Positions 2,166 to 10,500 of a stretch of 64,000 bases of DNA are shown here, in pieces. How positions within the stretch are numbered: position 1 is the first letter of the stretch; each line of letters starts with the position of its first letter. Location: contig NZ_KE557275.1 in NCBI RefSeq assembly GCF_000442255.1, forward strand, positions 184,047-248,046, read 5' to 3'. The notes under the pieces were generated by a model that did not search any database, was not told the origin of the DNA, and was given only the letters and a program-made list of their open reading frames with translations. Made by a program: the position numbers and the translations under genes. The stretch is from Salipiger mucosus DSM 16094 (GTDB lineage Bacteria > Pseudomonadota > Alphaproteobacteria > Rhodobacterales > Rhodobacteraceae).

Positions 2166-3659
2166 ATGAAGATCGCAGGCAGAGCCGTCGCGACGGCAGC
2201 GCTGCTGGCGCTGGCGGGCGTCGCGCTGGCGCAGGAGGACGATGAAGACATCGTCACCAAGCAGTACGACGACGGCGGCGTCTACGAGGGCACCTTCCAG
2301 GACGGGCTGCAGCACGGCACCGGCACCTACCGGCTGCCCAACGGCTACGAGTACGAAGGCGACTGGGTCGAGGGCGAGATCCGCGGCGAGGGCGTCGCGC
2401 GCTTCCCCAACGGCTCGGTCTACGAGGGCCAGTTCGCCAAGGGCAAGCCCGAGGGCGCCGGCCGCATCGTCTTTGCCGACGGCGGCACCTACGAGGGGCT
2501 CTGGCGCGACGGCAAGATCACCGGCAAGGGCGTCGCGGTCTACGCCAACGGCGTCCGCTACGAGGGCAACTTCCGCAACGCCCTGCACCACGGGCGCGGC
2601 ACCATGACCTCGCCCAACGGCTACACCTACGAGGGCGACTGGGTGAACGGCGTCAAGGAAGGCAACGCCACCATCACCTACCCCGACGGCTCGGTCTACG
2701 AGGGCCGCGTCGCCAACGGCCTGCGAGACGGCCGCGGCAAGCTCGAGATGGCCGACGGCCTCGTCTACGAGGGCATGTGGCGCGAGGGCCAGATCGACGG
2801 CGTCGGCACGCTCACCCAGCCCAACGGCGACGTCTACGAGGGCGAACTGGTCGAGGGTCGCCGCGACGGCGAAGGCAAGGTCACCTATGCCAACGGCGAC
2901 GTCTACGAGGGCCACTTCGAGAACGACCAGCGCCACGGGCAGGGCACCTTCACCGGGCAGGACGGCTACCGCTATTCCGGCGAATGGGTCTCGGGCCAGA
3001 TCGAGGGACAGGGCACCGTGACCTACCCCGACGGCTCGGTCTACGAGGGCGAATTCGTCGGCGATCTCGCCAACGGCGTGGGCAAGATCACCTACCCCGA
3101 CGGCTCCACCTACGAGGGCGACTGGGTCGACGGCGTGATCGAGGGCTCGGGCCGCGCGGTCTATGCCAACGGCCTCGTCTACGAGGGCGAATTCGAGAAC
3201 GCCCGCAACGAGGGACAGGGCGTCATGACCTATCCCGACGGCTACCGCTACGAAGGCGAATGGCAGGACGGCCAGCGCCACGGCCAGGGCACCGCCACCT
3301 ACCCCGACGGCACCGTCTACGAGGGCGCGTTCCGCGACGGCCAGCGCCACGGGCGCGGCACCATCGTCATGCCCGACGGATTCCGCTATGAAGGGGAATG
3401 GGAGAACGGCGAGATCAGCGGCCAGGGCGTCGCGACCTACGCCAACGGAGATGTCTACGAGGGCATGTTCGCGGACGGCAAGCGCCAGGGCGAAGGCACC
3501 ATGCGCTATGCCAGTGGGGAGGAGACCACGGGCGAATGGGTCAACGGAGTGCTGACCACCGACACGCCGGTGCAGACCGACGACGCGGAGGCCGAAGGCG
3601 ACGGGACCGGATCGGACCAGCAGGCGGACTCCGCGGGCGAGGAGTCTGCGGACAACTGA
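2166..3659 (+). CDS. Exported MORN-repeat protein
   Basis: The 497-residue protein starts with a clear Sec signal peptide (MKIAGRAVATAALLALAG, cleavage near VALAQ). Most of the rest is about 18 MORN units of 23 residues with the core YEGxWxxGxxxGxGxxxxxNG, plus a degenerate last unit (TTGEW). It ends in an acidic tail rich in D, E and G. MORN repeats form elongated beta-hairpin arrays that bind lipids or proteins; the ligand here is unknown. ATG at 2166 is chosen because it opens the signal peptide and has AAGGATC just upstream; an earlier in-frame start at 2142 would spoil the signal. Its stop overlaps the likely start of the downstream sensor gene, which suggests a shared transcript. The 69-bp DNA period keeps several other frames open, and these are not genes. 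Confidence 0.85.
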   Translation: MKIAGRAVATAALLALAGVALAQEDDEDIVTKQYDDGGVYEGTFQDGLQHGTGTYRLPNGYEYEGDWVEGEIRGEGVARFPNGSVYEGQFAKGKPEGAGRIVFADGGTYEGLWRDGKITGKGVAVYANGVRYEGNFRNALHHGRGTMTSPNGYTYEGDWVNGVKEGNATITYPDGSVYEGRVANGLRDGRGKLEMADGLVYEGMWREGQIDGVGTLTQPNGDVYEGELVEGRRDGEGKVTYANGDVYEGHFENDQRHGQGTFTGQDGYRYSGEWVSGQIEGQGTVTYPDGSVYEGEFVGDLANGVGKITYPDGSTYEGDWVDGVIEGSGRAVYANGLVYEGEFENARNEGQGVMTYPDGYRYEGEWQDGQRHGQGTATYPDGTVYEGAFRDGQRHGRGTIVMPDGFRYEGEWENGEISGQGVATYANGDVYEGMFADGKRQGEGTMRYASGEETTGEWVNGVLTTDTPVQTDDAEAEGDGTGSDQQADSAGEESADN

Positions 3660-4915
3660 CCCGGCTGCGCGGCGGCCTGCTGGCGGCCGCGCTCTGCCTG
3701 CTCTGGGCGCTCGCCCCGCAACAGGCCGCAGCCCAGGACGAGGCCGAGGCCGACGAGCTGCGCCTCGGCGTGCTGGCCTATCGCGGCTGGGACAGCGCGC
3801 ATAACGACTGGCAGCCTCTCGCGCGCTACCTCTCGGATCGTCTCGGCGGCCGCACGGTGCGGCTGGTGCCGGTGACGCTCAGCTCGGCCGCCCTGCTGAT
3901 CGAGACCGGCGCGATCCAGTTCCTCGCCACCAACCCCGGCCACTACCTCACCCTTGCCGAGACCTACCCGATGAGCGTGCTGGCCACCCGCGCCCGGCGC
4001 CTCTCGGACGGCAGTCGCGCCACCGCCTTCGGCAGCGTGCTGGTCGCCCGCCGGGGCAGCGGGCTCGATTCCTACTCCGACGTCGCGGGCATCCGGCTCG
4101 CGGCAGTCAGCCCGCGCGCCTTCGGCGGCTTCCAGACCGCCTGGTACGAGGCGCGCGAACAGGGCATCGACCTGCGCGCTGCGCCCTCCGAGATCGTGCA
4201 CCTCGGCTTCCCGATGGACCGCGTGGTCGAGGCGGTGCTGGCGGGTGACGCCGACATCGGCATCGTCCGCAGCGGGCTGATCGAGGGCATGATCCGCGAG
4301 GGCCGGCTCGACCCCGACGCCATCGAGACGCTGGACCCCGGCGCCAGCTACACCCATCCCGACGCGGTCAGCACCCGGCTCTGGCCCGAATGGCCCTTCG
4401 CCGCCGTCTCGGGCACCGACGACGCGCTTGTCGATGCCGTCGCGCTCGCCCTGCTGCAAAGCGCCGAAAGCGAGCTCACCGACATCTGGCGCGCCCCGGT
4501 CAGCTACCTGCCCGTGCGCCGCCTGCTCGACGCCTACACCGCCGCGGTCCAGCCCGCCCCCGGCCCCGCGCGCGCCCTCGCCCCCTGGGCCGCCGCGGCG
4601 CTGGTGACGCTCGGGCTGCTGGCCCTGCTGGCGCTGCGCTTCCGCCACCGCCTGCCGGCCCTGCCCCTGCCCCGTGGCGCGGCCGCCGACGCCCTGCCCG
4701 AGGTCAGCCTCACCCGCCGCGAACGGCAGGTGCTGACCCTGGTGAGCCGCGGCCTCTCCAGCAAGGAAATCGCAACCGATCTGGGCATCAGTCCCAAGAC
4801 CGTCGAGTTCCACCGCTCGAACCTGCTGCACAAGTTCGATGTGCGCAGCGCTGCACAACTCGTCAGCGTCGCGGGCAACATGGTGCGCGGAAGCAGAGAT
4901 CCGGACCCGACCTAG
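3656..4915 (+). CDS. Membrane one-component regulator: PhnD-like sensor, TM helix, LuxR-type HTH
   Basis: Numbering from the proposed start gives 419 residues. A signal sequence (about 1-26, ending QQAAAQ) is followed by a periplasmic solute-binding-like domain (about 35-295) of the PhnD type: LRLGVLAYRGWD, LATNPGHYL, DADIGIVRSG. A single helix spans 309-327 (PWAAAALVTLGLLALLAL). A LuxR/FixJ-type HTH at about 352-405 contains LTRRERQVL and SSKEIATDLGISPKTVEFH. No kinase or receiver domain is present, so it would sense outside and bind DNA inside. No ATG, GTG or TTG fits the signal peptide. The best start is CTG at 3656, overlapping the MORN stop as CTGA with GAGGAG 11 bases upstream; the in-frame ATG at 3536 would add 40 Arg-rich residues before the signal. 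The domain calls are firm, the start uncertain. Confidence 0.8.
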   Translation: MTRLRGGLLAAALCLLWALAPQQAAAQDEAEADELRLGVLAYRGWDSAHNDWQPLARYLSDRLGGRTVRLVPVTLSSAALLIETGAIQFLATNPGHYLTLAETYPMSVLATRARRLSDGSRATAFGSVLVARRGSGLDSYSDVAGIRLAAVSPRAFGGFQTAWYEAREQGIDLRAAPSEIVHLGFPMDRVVEAVLAGDADIGIVRSGLIEGMIREGRLDPDAIETLDPGASYTHPDAVSTRLWPEWPFAAVSGTDDALVDAVALALLQSAESELTDIWRAPVSYLPVRRLLDAYTAAVQPAPGPARALAPWAAAALVTLGLLALLALRFRHRLPALPLPRGAAADALPEVSLTRRERQVLTLVSRGLSSKEIATDLGISPKTVEFHRSNLLHKFDVRSAAQLVSVAGNMVRGSRDPDPT

Positions 4916-5037
4916 GGTTTTCCCGGGGTCGTTTTCGGGCAGAAATCACGGGTTTCGGCCGGTTCGCACCTCGCCCGCCCCGTGCCACCGTGTTCCGACC
5001 GGGCGCTCTGCCCGTGCAAGGAATGGGAGGAACCGAG

Positions 5038-5502
5038 ATGATTTCGAGACGCATTTTCGCGATGGTCGCCCTGGCCGGAACGGCCTTGGCCGCCACGGCA
5101 CCGCAGGTCTCCGCGCAGGGCGCGGGCTACGACAAGCAGAAGGTGGTCTATCACATCAACTACAACGGCGGCGACGACAACAAGTCCTACAAGGGCGCGC
5201 TGCGCAACATCCAGAACCACATCAACGCCGTCGGCGCCGAGAACCTCGAGGTGAAGGTGGTGATGCACGGCAACGGCCTCGGCCTGCTCATGGCCGCCAA
5301 GGAGGACGACCGCCTGCAGACCTCGGTCGGCTCGCTCAAGTCGCAGAACGTCGGCTTCAACGTCTGCGCCAATACCCTCAAGGGCCGGAACATCGACTAT
5401 TCGAACGATCTCTACGACGTCTGGGAAGAGGACATCGTCCCCTCGGGCGTGGCCGAGTTGTCGAAGCTCCAGCAGCAGGGCTACACCTACATCAAGCCCT
5501 GA
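5038..5502 (+). CDS. Periplasmic DsrE/DsrF-like protein
   Basis: A 154-residue protein with a signal peptide (MISRRIFAMVALAGTALAA, cleavage near QVSAQ). The mature part matches the DsrE-like fold: a strand at VVYHINYNGGDD, a strand at LEVKVVMHGNGLGLL, and a single conserved-type cysteine in VGFNVCANTLKG. DsrE proteins carry or exchange sulfur or act in sulfur-relay chemistry; exported members are common in Proteobacteria and mostly uncharacterised. The start is set by a strong GGGAGGA site just ahead of ATG 5038. It follows the PhnD-LuxR regulator by 122 bases and is a candidate target of that regulator (inference). A GC hairpin follows the stop. Confidence 0.75.
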   Translation: MISRRIFAMVALAGTALAATAPQVSAQGAGYDKQKVVYHINYNGGDDNKSYKGALRNIQNHINAVGAENLEVKVVMHGNGLGLLMAAKEDDRLQTSVGSLKSQNVGFNVCANTLKGRNIDYSNDLYDVWEEDIVPSGVAELSKLQQQGYTYIKP

Positions 5503-5563: not shown

Positions 5564-5627
5564 CGAACCGTACGGTTCGGCCTCGGGGGCCTGTCCGAAC
5601 CGTACGAAAACCCCGTACGACCCGTAC
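5564..5627. promoter_or_regulatory. CGTACG palindrome cluster between convergent genes
   Basis: A perfect 16-bp palindrome, CGAACCGTACGGTTCG (5564-5579), is followed by a partial direct copy CGAACCGTACG (5596-5606), another CGTACG (5614-5619) and CGTAC (5623-5627). The segment lies between the ends of the DsrE-like gene and the photolyase gene, an unexpected place for an operator. It could be a protein-binding site or a paired RNA 3' end. The sequence pattern is certain and the function unknown. Confidence 0.5.
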
Positions 5628-7857: not shown

Positions 7858-10500
7858 TCAAGCCTGTTCCGCCGCCTCCCGCGGCTTGGCCTTCGCCAGC
7901 AGCGCCGCGATCTCGGGCCGGCAGGAGCCGCAGTTCGTGCCCGCCTCCAGCGCCGCGCCGATCTCCTCGACGCTCATCAGGCCCCTCGTCTCGATCGCCG
8001 TCAGGATGGTGTTGACCCCCACGTTGAAGCACGAACAGACCATCGGCCCGGGGTCCGGCTGGTCGGCGGGCGACCGGCCGGACAGCGCGTGCCAGGCCTC
8101 TTTCCCCGGCAGTAAGGCAAGGTGGCTGCGCATGACCGCCACCGGCGTCGGCGCCACGAACAGCGCCGCCTCGAGCCGGCCGTCGCGGTGAAAGGCCACG
8201 CGGAAGCCGCCCTTCGCCGGATCGCTCGCGACCTGCGCCTCGGCGGTCTCGTCAAGGCCGAAGAGCCGCCGCGCCTCGGCCAGCCAGTCGGCGGGCGTGT
8301 TCGTCCCCGCCAGTTCGGCGCGGTATCCCGTGGTCGTCGGCGCCAAGGCCCAGTAGGCACAGTCGGGATGCATGTCGCCGGCCGAGACGGCGAAACCGTA
8401 CCAGCGCGCCGCGAAGGGCGCGAGCGCGACGGCGGCCGCCTTGCTCTCGGGCTGGCCGGAGACCGGATCGGTCACCGGCGCGACCAGTGCGTCGACGCGG
8501 GCCGAGGGCGCGGTCTCGCCCGTCCAGTGCATCGGCGCGAAGACGTCGCCGCGCCGCACCGTGTCGGTCACCCAGGCCCGCAGGATGGCGCGGCCCTGCG
8601 GGCTGCTCACCTCGACAAGGCTCGCCGGCGCGATGCCCTGGGCCGCGGCGTCCTCGGGGTGGATCTCGAGGAAGGGCTCGGCCAGGTGCGCCGAGAGGCG
8701 CGGCGACAGGCCCGTTCTGGTCATCGTGTGCCACTGGTCGCGGATGCGGCCCGTGTTGAAACGAAAGGGAAAATCCCGCCCGGTCGCGGCCACCGGCGCG
8801 CGCCAGTGCACCGGCAGCATCCGGCCCCGCCCGCTTTCGGTGAAGAAGCGCCCGTCGCCGAAGAACCGCCCGCCCTGCCGCGCGCCCGTGGCAGGCCAGC
8901 GGAAGGGGGCGAGGTCGGCATAGGCGCTGTCGGCGATGTCGGCGTGGGCAGAGATGTCGAAGTCGCGGCCAAAGCCCCCGGCGACGCCCGACAGGGCCGC
9001 GTATTCGCGGAAGATCTCGGCCGGGCCTGCGTAGTCGAAGGCCTGCTGCCAGCCCATGCGCCGCCCGACCTCGGCCAGGATCGCCCAGTCGGGACGGGAC
9101 TGTCCCCAGGGGGCCAGCGCCGCACGTTGCCGGCTGATCGTACGGTCGGAGTTGGTGACAGTGCCCTCCTTCTCGCCCCAGGCGGCGGCGGGAAGCAGCA
9201 CGTCGGCCAGCCGGGCGGTGTCGGTGGCGTCGGTGATGTCGCTCACCACCACGAAGTCGCAACCGGCGATGGCATCGCGCACCCGGTTGGCGTCAGGCAT
9301 GGAGACGGCGGGATTGGTGTGGATGATCCAGAGCGCCCGGATCTGCCCGGTCTCGACAGCGCGGAACATGTCGACGGCCTTGAGGCCCGGCCGATCGGAA
9401 ATGGCGGGCGCGCCCCAGAAGGCGCGCACGGCGGCGCGGTGGTCGGCATTCTCGATGTCGAGGTGACAGGCCAGCGTGTTGGCCAGCCCCCCGACCTCGC
9501 GCCCGCCCATGGCGTTGGGCTGCCCGGTGACCGAGAAGGGCCCGCAGCCCGGCCGCCCGATCCGCCCCGAGGCGAGGTGGCAGTTGAGGATCGCGTTGAC
9601 CTTGTCCGATCCCGCCGAAGACTGGTTCACGCCCTGGCTGTACACGGTGACGACCTTTTCCGTGCCGGCCCAGAGCGCGTAGAAGGCTTCGAGCTGCGCC
9701 TCGCTCAGCCCCGTTTCGGCAGGATCGTCGCCGCTCGCGGCGGCAAGCGCGTCGTCGAAGCCCTCGACATGCGCAAGGAAGGCGGCATCCAGCGCGCCGC
9801 GTTCGTAGAGCGCGCAGAGCAGCCCGTTGAAGAGCGCCACGTCCGAGCCGGGCCGCACCGGAAGGTGCATGTCGGCGATGTCGCAGGAGGCGGTGCGGCG
9901 CGGGTCGATGACCACCACGCGCATGCGCGGACGCGCCTGTTTCGCCGCGAGGACGCGCTGGTAGAGCACCGGGTGGCACCAGGCGAGGTTGGACCCGGTC
10001 AGCACCACGAGGTCGGCTTCCTCGAGGTCCTCGTAGGTGCCGGGCACGGTGTCGGTGCCGAAGGCGCGCTTATGGCCGGCCACGCTCGAGGCCATGCAGA
10101 GCCGCGAGTTGGTGTCGATGTTCGCCGTGCCGATGAAGCCCTTCATCAGCTTGTTCGCGACGTAGTAGTCCTCGGTCAGAAGCTGGCCCGAGACATAGAA
10201 GCCGACGCTCTCGGGCCCGTACTGGTCGATGGTCTCGCGGAAGCGCTCGGCGACATGCGACAGCGCGCTGTCCCAGTCCGTGTCGCGCCCGTCGAGGCGC
10301 GGGGCGGAAAGCCGGTGCGCGGTGCCCACCGTCTCGCCCAGGGCCGAGCCCTTGGAGCAGAGCCGCCCGAGGTTCGCAGGATGGTCCGGGTCGCCCCGCA
10401 CCTCGAGCCCGCCGCGCCCATCGGGACGCAGCAGCACGCCGCAGCCGACCCCGCAATAGGCGCAGGTCGAGCGCGTCTCGGGAAGCCCGGAGCCGTCCAT
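7858..10500 (-). CDS. nasA: Assimilatory nitrate reductase catalytic subunit
   Basis: Reduces nitrate to nitrite in the cytoplasm using a Mo-bis-MGD centre. The 880 residues open with a [4Fe-4S] motif (CAYCGVGCG and GRLCSKGSA), followed by the molybdopterin oxidoreductase domain (TNSRLCMASSV, GSNLAWCHPVL, VYSQGVNQSSAGSDK) and the dinucleotide-binding domain (FRFNTGRIRDQWHTMTRTG). The C-terminus is a BFD-like [2Fe-2S] domain with MVCSCFNVG and GTNCGSCRPE, typical of NADH-linked or ferredoxin-linked assimilatory enzymes. ATG 10500 shares one base with the nirD stop (TGATG); GTG 10503 is a less likely alternative. It is the last gene of the nitrate operon. Confidence 0.95.
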   Translation of the reverse strand: MDGSGLPETRSTCAYCGVGCGVLLRPDGRGGLEVRGDPDHPANLGRLCSKGSALGETVGTAHRLSAPRLDGRDTDWDSALSHVAERFRETIDQYGPESVGFYVSGQLLTEDYYVANKLMKGFIGTANIDTNSRLCMASSVAGHKRAFGTDTVPGTYEDLEEADLVVLTGSNLAWCHPVLYQRVLAAKQARPRMRVVVIDPRRTASCDIADMHLPVRPGSDVALFNGLLCALYERGALDAAFLAHVEGFDDALAAASGDDPAETGLSEAQLEAFYALWAGTEKVVTVYSQGVNQSSAGSDKVNAILNCHLASGRIGRPGCGPFSVTGQPNAMGGREVGGLANTLACHLDIENADHRAAVRAFWGAPAISDRPGLKAVDMFRAVETGQIRALWIIHTNPAVSMPDANRVRDAIAGCDFVVVSDITDATDTARLADVLLPAAAWGEKEGTVTNSDRTISRQRAALAPWGQSRPDWAILAEVGRRMGWQQAFDYAGPAEIFREYAALSGVAGGFGRDFDISAHADIADSAYADLAPFRWPATGARQGGRFFGDGRFFTESGRGRMLPVHWRAPVAATGRDFPFRFNTGRIRDQWHTMTRTGLSPRLSAHLAEPFLEIHPEDAAAQGIAPASLVEVSSPQGRAILRAWVTDTVRRGDVFAPMHWTGETAPSARVDALVAPVTDPVSGQPESKAAAVALAPFAARWYGFAVSAGDMHPDCAYWALAPTTTGYRAELAGTNTPADWLAEARRLFGLDETAEAQVASDPAKGGFRVAFHRDGRLEAALFVAPTPVAVMRSHLALLPGKEAWHALSGRSPADQPDPGPMVCSCFNVGVNTILTAIETRGLMSVEEIGAALEAGTNCGSCRPEIAALLAKAKPREAAEQA

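Follow-up and report, generated by a model that had tools for sequence, protein, structure and literature searches.

We analyzed a window of 64,000 nucleotides (nt) from Salipiger mucosus DSM 16094 (contig NZ_KE557275.1, positions 184,047 to 248,046, within a genome of 5.69 Mb in 30 contigs) and found a gene whose product, judged from its sequence, is probably (probability roughly 0.6) a single-pass transmembrane one-component transcription regulator, in which a sensor like that of the kinase TtrS would govern a tethered LuxR-type helix-turn-helix (HTH) acting on the gene of an exported DsrE-like protein (Table 1). Control of the adjacent DsrE gene had been proposed in a preliminary description of this DNA, and it is supported by the conserved adjacency of the two genes in 16 of 20 genomes together with a palindrome that is linked to the regulator and lies at a nearly fixed distance from DsrE.

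In the mechanism that we propose, a Sec-type signal peptide would bring the PhnD domain, which is TtrS-like, into the periplasm. There it would close around a small divalent anion, for which a sulfur oxyanion is the likeliest candidate. The signal would then cross the membrane along a single helix and reach the cytoplasmic LuxR-type HTHs, which would form a dimer and remain tethered to the membrane. This dimer is predicted to bind the palindrome CCTAGGG-W4-CCCTAGG located after the regulator's own gene and to activate DsrE, whose product would probably carry sulfane sulfur on its conserved cysteine, alongside the Sox thiosulfate-oxidizing system.

Table 1. Features of the regulator locus, in window coordinates
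Feature	Position	Strand	Basis or remark
Regulator: signal peptide, PhnD/TtrS-like sensor, one transmembrane helix, LuxR/GerE HTH	3656..4915	+	419 aa, probable CTG start
Signal peptide, about residues 1-27	3656..3736	+	by eye; similar N-termini from CTG in 5 other CTGA genes
Periplasmic PhnD-type ligand-binding domain PF12974, residues 38-271	3767..4468	+	Pfam, AlphaFold2 model, PDB fold match
Single transmembrane helix, then basic RFRHR	4580..4642	+	hydropathy; low-confidence full-length model
Cytoplasmic LuxR/GerE HTH, residues 351-406	4706..4873	+	Pfam
Candidate operator CCTAGGGTTTTCCCGGGG, 12/14 consensus positions	4911..4928	.	upstream-region comparison; center 118 nt before DsrE ATG
Likely target: exported DsrE-like protein, single cysteine Cys110 in VC(A/N)NT	5038..5502	+	PF02635
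Upstream MORN-repeat protein, 16 repeats; stop overlaps regulator start	2166..3659	+	Pfam
Probable CTG start in CTGA, a 4-nt overlap with the MORN stop	3653-3660		

Domain architecture and start of the regulator

Pfam assigns the regulator a Phosphonate-bd domain (PF12974, E 4.9e-34) and a GerE domain (PF00196, E 1.1e-20), and finds none of HisKA, HATPase_c, and Response_reg in it at E <= 0.001. The best NCBIfam match is the sensor part of TtrS (NF040750; residues 30-295, E 5.9e-44), scoring 150 bits where the full-length cut-off is 750. The N-terminus, LTRLRGGLLAAALCLLWALAPQQAAAQ, resembles a signal peptide by eye, and hydropathy gives one helix at about residues 307-330 with RFRHR directly after it, which would place the PhnD domain in the periplasm and the HTH in the cytoplasm. 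Modeled alone in AlphaFold2, the sensor (residues 32-300) reaches a pLDDT of 96.0 and a pTM of 0.91, and its nearest fold in the PDB is PtxB with methylphosphonate (5o37, TMq 0.82), HtxB, ArrX, and PhnD being among the next. This sensor model was used for the structure search in place of the full-length model, which is poor (pLDDT 62.0, pTM 0.42) and contains the helix (H309-329) at low confidence. Phylogenetic trees group the sensor with those of PhnD kinases and apart from the PhnD of its own genome, in which the regulator query matches no other protein at E <= 1e-10 and thus no TtrS-like kinase is seen. These searches bear out the architecture given in the preliminary description, namely a signal peptide (by eye), a PhnD-type domain, one transmembrane helix, and a LuxR HTH with neither kinase nor receiver, as well as its kinship to TtrS. 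With a GerE domain and one transmembrane helix in the same protein, the regulator has the domain composition of a transmembrane transcription regulator (TTR).

A single-helix anchor followed by a linker of about 20 residues would permit cleavage, and the HTH might be freed by regulated proteolysis instead of acting tethered, or might act as a repressor. We consider this unlikely: no conserved protease neighbor was recognized by eye in the loci read, where no dedicated search was made, and TtrR and ThsR, the partners of the sensors TtrS and ThsS, are activators (PMC11293645, PMC5408782).

The regulator gene appears to begin in an overlap with the stop of the upstream MORN gene. No ATG, GTG, or TTG codon is in frame between that stop and the PhnD domain, and the in-frame ATGs farther upstream (e.g., at 3398 and about 3536) all lie inside the MORN gene and would add 40 or more residues ahead of the signal peptide. 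CTG at 3656 is the plausible start and yields a signal-peptide-like N-terminus. The CTGA overlap recurs in 6 of the 20 regulator genes (G000, which is the window's genome, G303, G302, G292, G124, and G213) and a TTGA overlap is found in two others (G1125 and G1169), while later in-frame ATGs are also present in the regulators of G302 and G1169. A translationally coupled, non-ATG start is our best reading of these sequences. In G303, a single 916-aa open frame (L058 8251-11001) covers both MORN and regulator, which we considered as a fusion and rejected, as the MORN tail is out of frame; it is an indel in the MORN gene or an assembly error and not a designed fusion.

Conserved DsrE neighbor and candidate operator

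Searching for the same architecture and tabulating its neighbors, as the preliminary description had suggested, gave 20 distinct genomes with a full-length regulator from partly overlapping samples: 6/292 genomes of the order, 4/20 of the genus, 13/394 of the family (393 genera), 1/289 of the class (the window's own genome), and 2/349 of the phylum (its own and G680). Only the best few candidates per genome were scored, so members may be missed. The family sample held a fourteenth match, a 619-aa protein of G1089 in which the match stops ahead of the HTH; scanning of genome contigs added one HTH-only match, and no match covering 80% of the query was found in 94 plasmid records. A close DsrE ortholog lies directly downstream of the regulator in the 16 genomes mentioned above (G000, G303, G302, G292, G124, G213, G122, G140, G680, G1031, G944, G1125, G1169, G1015, G1155, and G1028), although its frame is short in G1169 and is cut by the contig end in G1155; G1046 has a distant DsrE-like gene (PF02635, E 1.5e-5). 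Within the order, close DsrE orthologs occur in 5/6 regulator genomes vs 17/292 overall (hypergeometric p 2e-6, uncorrected for shared descent).

The DsrE-like product carries PF02635 at E 1e-10 (Pfam) and, by eye, an export-type N-terminus. A C-x-N-T cysteine motif is present in all 29 DsrE loci examined, a set that leaves aside L107 and L175, and such a conserved cysteine fits the sulfane-sulfur carriers of the DsrE family. In L107 (7975-8427), a DsrE ortholog at a sox cluster is broken by two in-frame TAA codons.

The upstream side of the regulator is more variable. MORN, with nadE beyond it, is found in 11 of the 20 loci, in one of them (G122) with an aminotransferase gene between MORN and the regulator. 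We therefore weighed whether the regulator might serve the overlapping MORN gene and the envelope, with DsrE secondary, a reading also favored by the overlap of the MORN stop with the regulator start in eight loci (the MORN frame of G303 being itself shifted). However, MORN was not found near the regulator in the other 9/20 loci, whereas DsrE stays in 16/20: five genomes (G140, G680, G1015, G1155, and G1028) keep DsrE in the absence of the nadE-MORN neighborhood, including G680, which lies outside the window's family and has the regulator and DsrE with neither MORN nor nadE. Moreover, the candidate site described below faces DsrE, and in G298, from the window's genus, the nadE-MORN-DsrE order is preserved and both regulator and site are missing. 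We thus regard MORN as the principal target as highly improbable. The MORN protein itself has an export-type look, and nadE accompanies it in the 11 regulator loci and in G298.

When upstream regions were compared, a palindrome of 18 bp, CCTAGGG-W4-CCCTAGG, stood out immediately downstream of the regulator. Scoring as a site at least 12/14 fixed positions or GGG-W4-CCC within 300 nt upstream of DsrE, we found it in 15/17 loci with the regulator vs 1/12 loci without (Fisher p 2.4e-5; this comparison omits L107, with its broken DsrE, and the locus-wide scans below omit L038). In 14 of the 15, the site is centered 114-124 nt upstream of the DsrE start codon, and in G213 the site sits about 350 nt beyond the regulator stop with its distance to DsrE unchanged. 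In nine of the 20 genomes, the window's included (the others being L058, L059, L060, L041, L173, L174, L175, and L176), the TAG stop of the regulator falls within the half-site CCTAGGG, so that the same sequence would serve coding and regulation. As a control, 16,000 upstream regions of 200 nt with shuffled bases gave 31 matches at 12/14 and none to the exact pattern CCNNGGGWWWWCCCNNGG. Across 42 loci (679,243 bp), 14 places had a 12/14 match or the exact pattern; nine follow a regulator or its two-component counterpart, four lie inside MORN genes, and one is elsewhere. Inverted repeats with a 4-nt center upstream of the target, as in operators of the FixJ/TtrR type, are thus present as a candidate site, and we take the palindrome as a candidate operator of the DsrE gene.

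Genome-wide, the exact pattern stands at the junction in 8/10 regulator genomes (those then known) and is the sole copy in G124, G213, G122, and G100; being present once per genome in these four, it looks like the mark of a switch dedicated to hardly more than one target. One of ten genomes lacking the regulator had a match, and the exact pattern has no match in two genomes with the two-component form. Additional copies are found in the window's genome (two), G303 (one), G302 (two), and G292 (one). We considered them as a wider regulon and rejected this, since none lies ahead of a sulfur gene recognized by eye; the two extra copies in the window's genome are GC palindromes that do not contain CCTAGG, one of them between rpsA-like and ihfB-like genes. 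Control of the sox cluster by the regulator was likewise rejected, as no good site was found in the sox stretches of the window's genome, G124, or G122.

A GC-rich palindrome with a 4-nt loop at the 3' end of the regulator gene could form a hairpin, and might be an intrinsic terminator of the MORN-regulator transcript with DsrE as a passenger. However, a T-run of at least 4 within 10 nt follows only 3/16 sites (the window's own among the three), the spacing is held to DsrE and not to the regulator stop, as seen in G213, the sequence itself is conserved beyond what pairing needs, and the geometry is the same as that of the tested TtrR and ThsR operators (PMC11293645, PMC5408782). A terminator is thus very unlikely. 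A different inverted repeat, perfect over 12 bp (CGTACGGTTCGG / CCGAACCGTACG, window positions 5569-5606), separates the convergent genes for DsrE and PF04244 (DPRP) and probably marks a terminator region.

Two-component counterparts, origin, and ligand

Related two-component systems have palindromes in the same place. Nine ttr loci in the same family (G024 and G115 are near copies) have TtrS-like and TtrR-like genes beside ttrBCA-like genes, and eight of them (not L064) have a TAGGGG-N4-CCCCTA palindrome between ttrR and the ttr genes, with a single-base deviation in L047. These loci serve as a positive control for the regulator-adjacent palindrome. In L044, the best NCBIfam matches are TtrA, TtrB, TtrC, and TtrS, and the response regulator matches FixJ best and TtrR second, all under the strict cut-offs; genes in the other ttr loci are named by likeness. 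Among published operators, the Vibrio TtrR site GTGG-N4-CCAC is required for binding and activation (PMC11293645), and the ThsR site TATGTGGTTTACCACAAT is likened to that of FixJ (PMC5408782); the four-base center and the half-site spacing are common to these and to the candidate site of our regulator.

Two relatives bring the two-component form close to sulfur genes, and both have the histidine kinase core (Pfam) that is absent from the regulator. The pair in G805, a PhnD kinase with a regulator of receiver and GerE domains, adjoins a DsrE ortholog that is preceded by CCTAGGGAATACCCTAAT. In G357, the sox cluster that surrounds a PhnD-kinase/FixJ-type pair includes SoxB (a partial gene matched by TIGR04486) and a SoxA-type cytochrome, and CCAAGGGTTAACCCTTGC (L133 5528-5545, 11/14) is found between the response regulator and a soxC-like gene; this pair possibly represents two-component thiosulfate control of sox. 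A further candidate site of this kind, CAGGGGTTTTCCCCAGG (L182, about 9763-9780 with the regulator match read on the + strand), lies between the gene of the 619-aa protein of G1089, a probable kinase with a PhnD domain, and the gene downstream of it.

The preliminary description took the regulator for a collapsed two-component system, which implies an ancestral kinase. This possible ancestry is attractive because a two-component form adjoins the same DsrE and site in G805. Ten regulators formed one clade (100/100) near TtrS (93/82), which suggested a single origin near TtrS. With all 20, this origin was not upheld: the tree becomes open, with G1155 and G1028 set apart from the others, and approximately unbiased (AU) tests reject neither regulator monophyly (p 0.41) nor a regulator-free kinase clade (p 0.37). 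Both trees omit the partial copy L075, and the second also omits OUT_SBP2. We tentatively suggest, at somewhat less than even odds, that a thiosulfate-type two-component system was reduced, perhaps repeatedly, to one transmembrane protein, with the ancestral sensor and operator geometry retained and the kinase and receiver lost.

A sulfur oxyanion, with thiosulfate as the first guess, is supported as the putative ligand, given the following genomic and sequence context. SoxB is over its cut-off in 17/17 close-DsrE genomes vs 174/292 genomes of the order (p 1e-4, uncorrected) and in 6/6 regulator genomes of that sample (p 0.04); in the genus, SoxB is found in 17/20 genomes, all four with the regulator among them. 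In 4/12 order genomes that have DsrE without the regulator (G042, G195, G173, and G268), the DsrE gene is found at a sox cluster, next to a DUF302-like gene (the one tested is just below the Pfam cut-off), which recalls the sox clusters of Sulfitobacter, where orfs annotated as DsrE (orf2) and as DUF302 are of unknown function (PMC11034169). In an alignment of the first 10 of the 20 regulators with 9 TtrS rows (the partial copy L075 and the divergent kinases L020-L023 left out), 36 of the 43 columns conserved in both groups hold the same residue. Pocket positions 188, 207, and 245 are D, G, and E in 10/10 regulator rows and Q, C, and G in the TtrS rows, a weak hint that the ligand is related to that of TtrS but different.

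The same switch might instead respond to a non-sulfur ligand (phosphite, a phosphonate, arsenic oxyanions, or another small anion), with DsrE as a stress or repair gene. The SBP_bac_11 family includes molybdate binders, and the regulators of G100 and G1013 stand ahead of an SBP_bac_11 gene; the nearest solved folds, PtxB (phosphite), ArrX (arsenate), HtxB, and PhnD, are also in favor of such a ligand. On the other hand, the STS-H residues by which PtxB binds phosphite (PMC5700983) correspond to A155, F156, G157, and M187 in the regulator, so this motif is not conserved; the agreement of regulators and TtrS in the alignment above also speaks for sulfur. The genome context is that of DsrE, sox, and ttr, with no arsenic or phosphonate genes recognized by eye in the gene calls, for which no dedicated search was made. 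Taken together, a non-sulfur ligand appears rather doubtful. In G100 and G1013, a site of the same kind precedes the SBP_bac_11 gene, marking a second regulator subtype (L043 6980-7945, L177 82-1047) whose ligand may hint at the signal.

Several observations weigh against a sulfur-responsive regulator acting on DsrE. The regulator is rare in the order, and 12 of the 17 order genomes with a close DsrE do not have it, so DsrE mostly manages alone; in 8 of these 12, DsrE lies away from sox genes. SBP_bac_11 takes the place of DsrE downstream of the regulator in G100 and G1013, and the G1003 locus has neither DsrE nor the site. No good site accompanies the DsrE of G140 and G680, the only site of G1028 is at 55 nt, and L099, a DsrE locus that lacks the regulator, satisfies the site rule weakly (8/14). 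The sox cluster of the window's own genome has no good site. Finally, the D188, G207, and E245 set is also present in 9/22 other sensor-kinase rows, including the DsrE-linked kinase of G805; it may be ancestral and carry little information on the ligand, which slightly lowers our confidence.

Relation to known systems

Transmembrane one-component regulators are a known class: one survey counted 50,302 transmembrane regulators (PMC10269533), and LuxR types with 10-12 helices are proven activators in Eggerthella (PMC9734109). The view in the preliminary description that a membrane-anchored LuxR output without a phosphorelay is unusual was thus too strong. The combination of a PhnD-type sensor and a LuxR HTH in one protein was not described in the literature searched, by title or abstract opening and with subscription journals largely uncovered; beyond the preliminary description, the present analysis contributes a candidate operator whose distance is constrained, the two-component counterparts of this operator, and a wider census of neighbors. 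Signal transfer to DNA through a single helix has mostly been studied in ToxR-like proteins. For transmembrane regulators at large, its mechanism is described as poorly understood (PMC10269533). Exported DsrE proteins would gain a first regulatory handle here, and the regulator might allow sulfur-anion reporters that need one gene instead of the two used today.

Compared with soluble binding proteins such as PtxB, PhnD, ArrX, and AioX, the regulator shares the fold of the sensor domain and differs in being membrane bound and, for PtxB, in the phosphite motif. Its sensor of solute-binding-protein fold is N-terminal, after a signal peptide, and its LuxR HTH is C-terminal, whereas ToxR and CadC have the reverse order and winged-helix outputs. 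As in the ToxR/CadC class (PMC10269533), the sensor and the DNA-binding domain belong to the same protein, which crosses the membrane once. The Eggerthella regulators DadR, HcdR, and CadR (PMC9734109) are also LuxR-type membrane proteins that work without a phosphorelay and control a neighboring metabolic gene, but they have a multi-pass domain of 10-12 transmembrane helices in place of a periplasmic PhnD domain and one helix. Closest are TtrS/TtrR and ThsS/ThsR, which have a PhnD-like periplasmic sensor, a LuxR/FixJ-type HTH, and an inverted-repeat operator with a 4-nt center between regulator and target gene. They differ from the regulator in being two proteins, where it is one without HisKA, HATPase, or receiver, in lying beside ttrBCA or phsAB instead of DsrE, and, for TtrS, in the three pocket residues. 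With the input domain, the LuxR output, the candidate operator, the likely target, and a two-component twin (G805) all in hand, and with this twin having the same operator and target, the one-protein and two-protein designs can be compared part for part.

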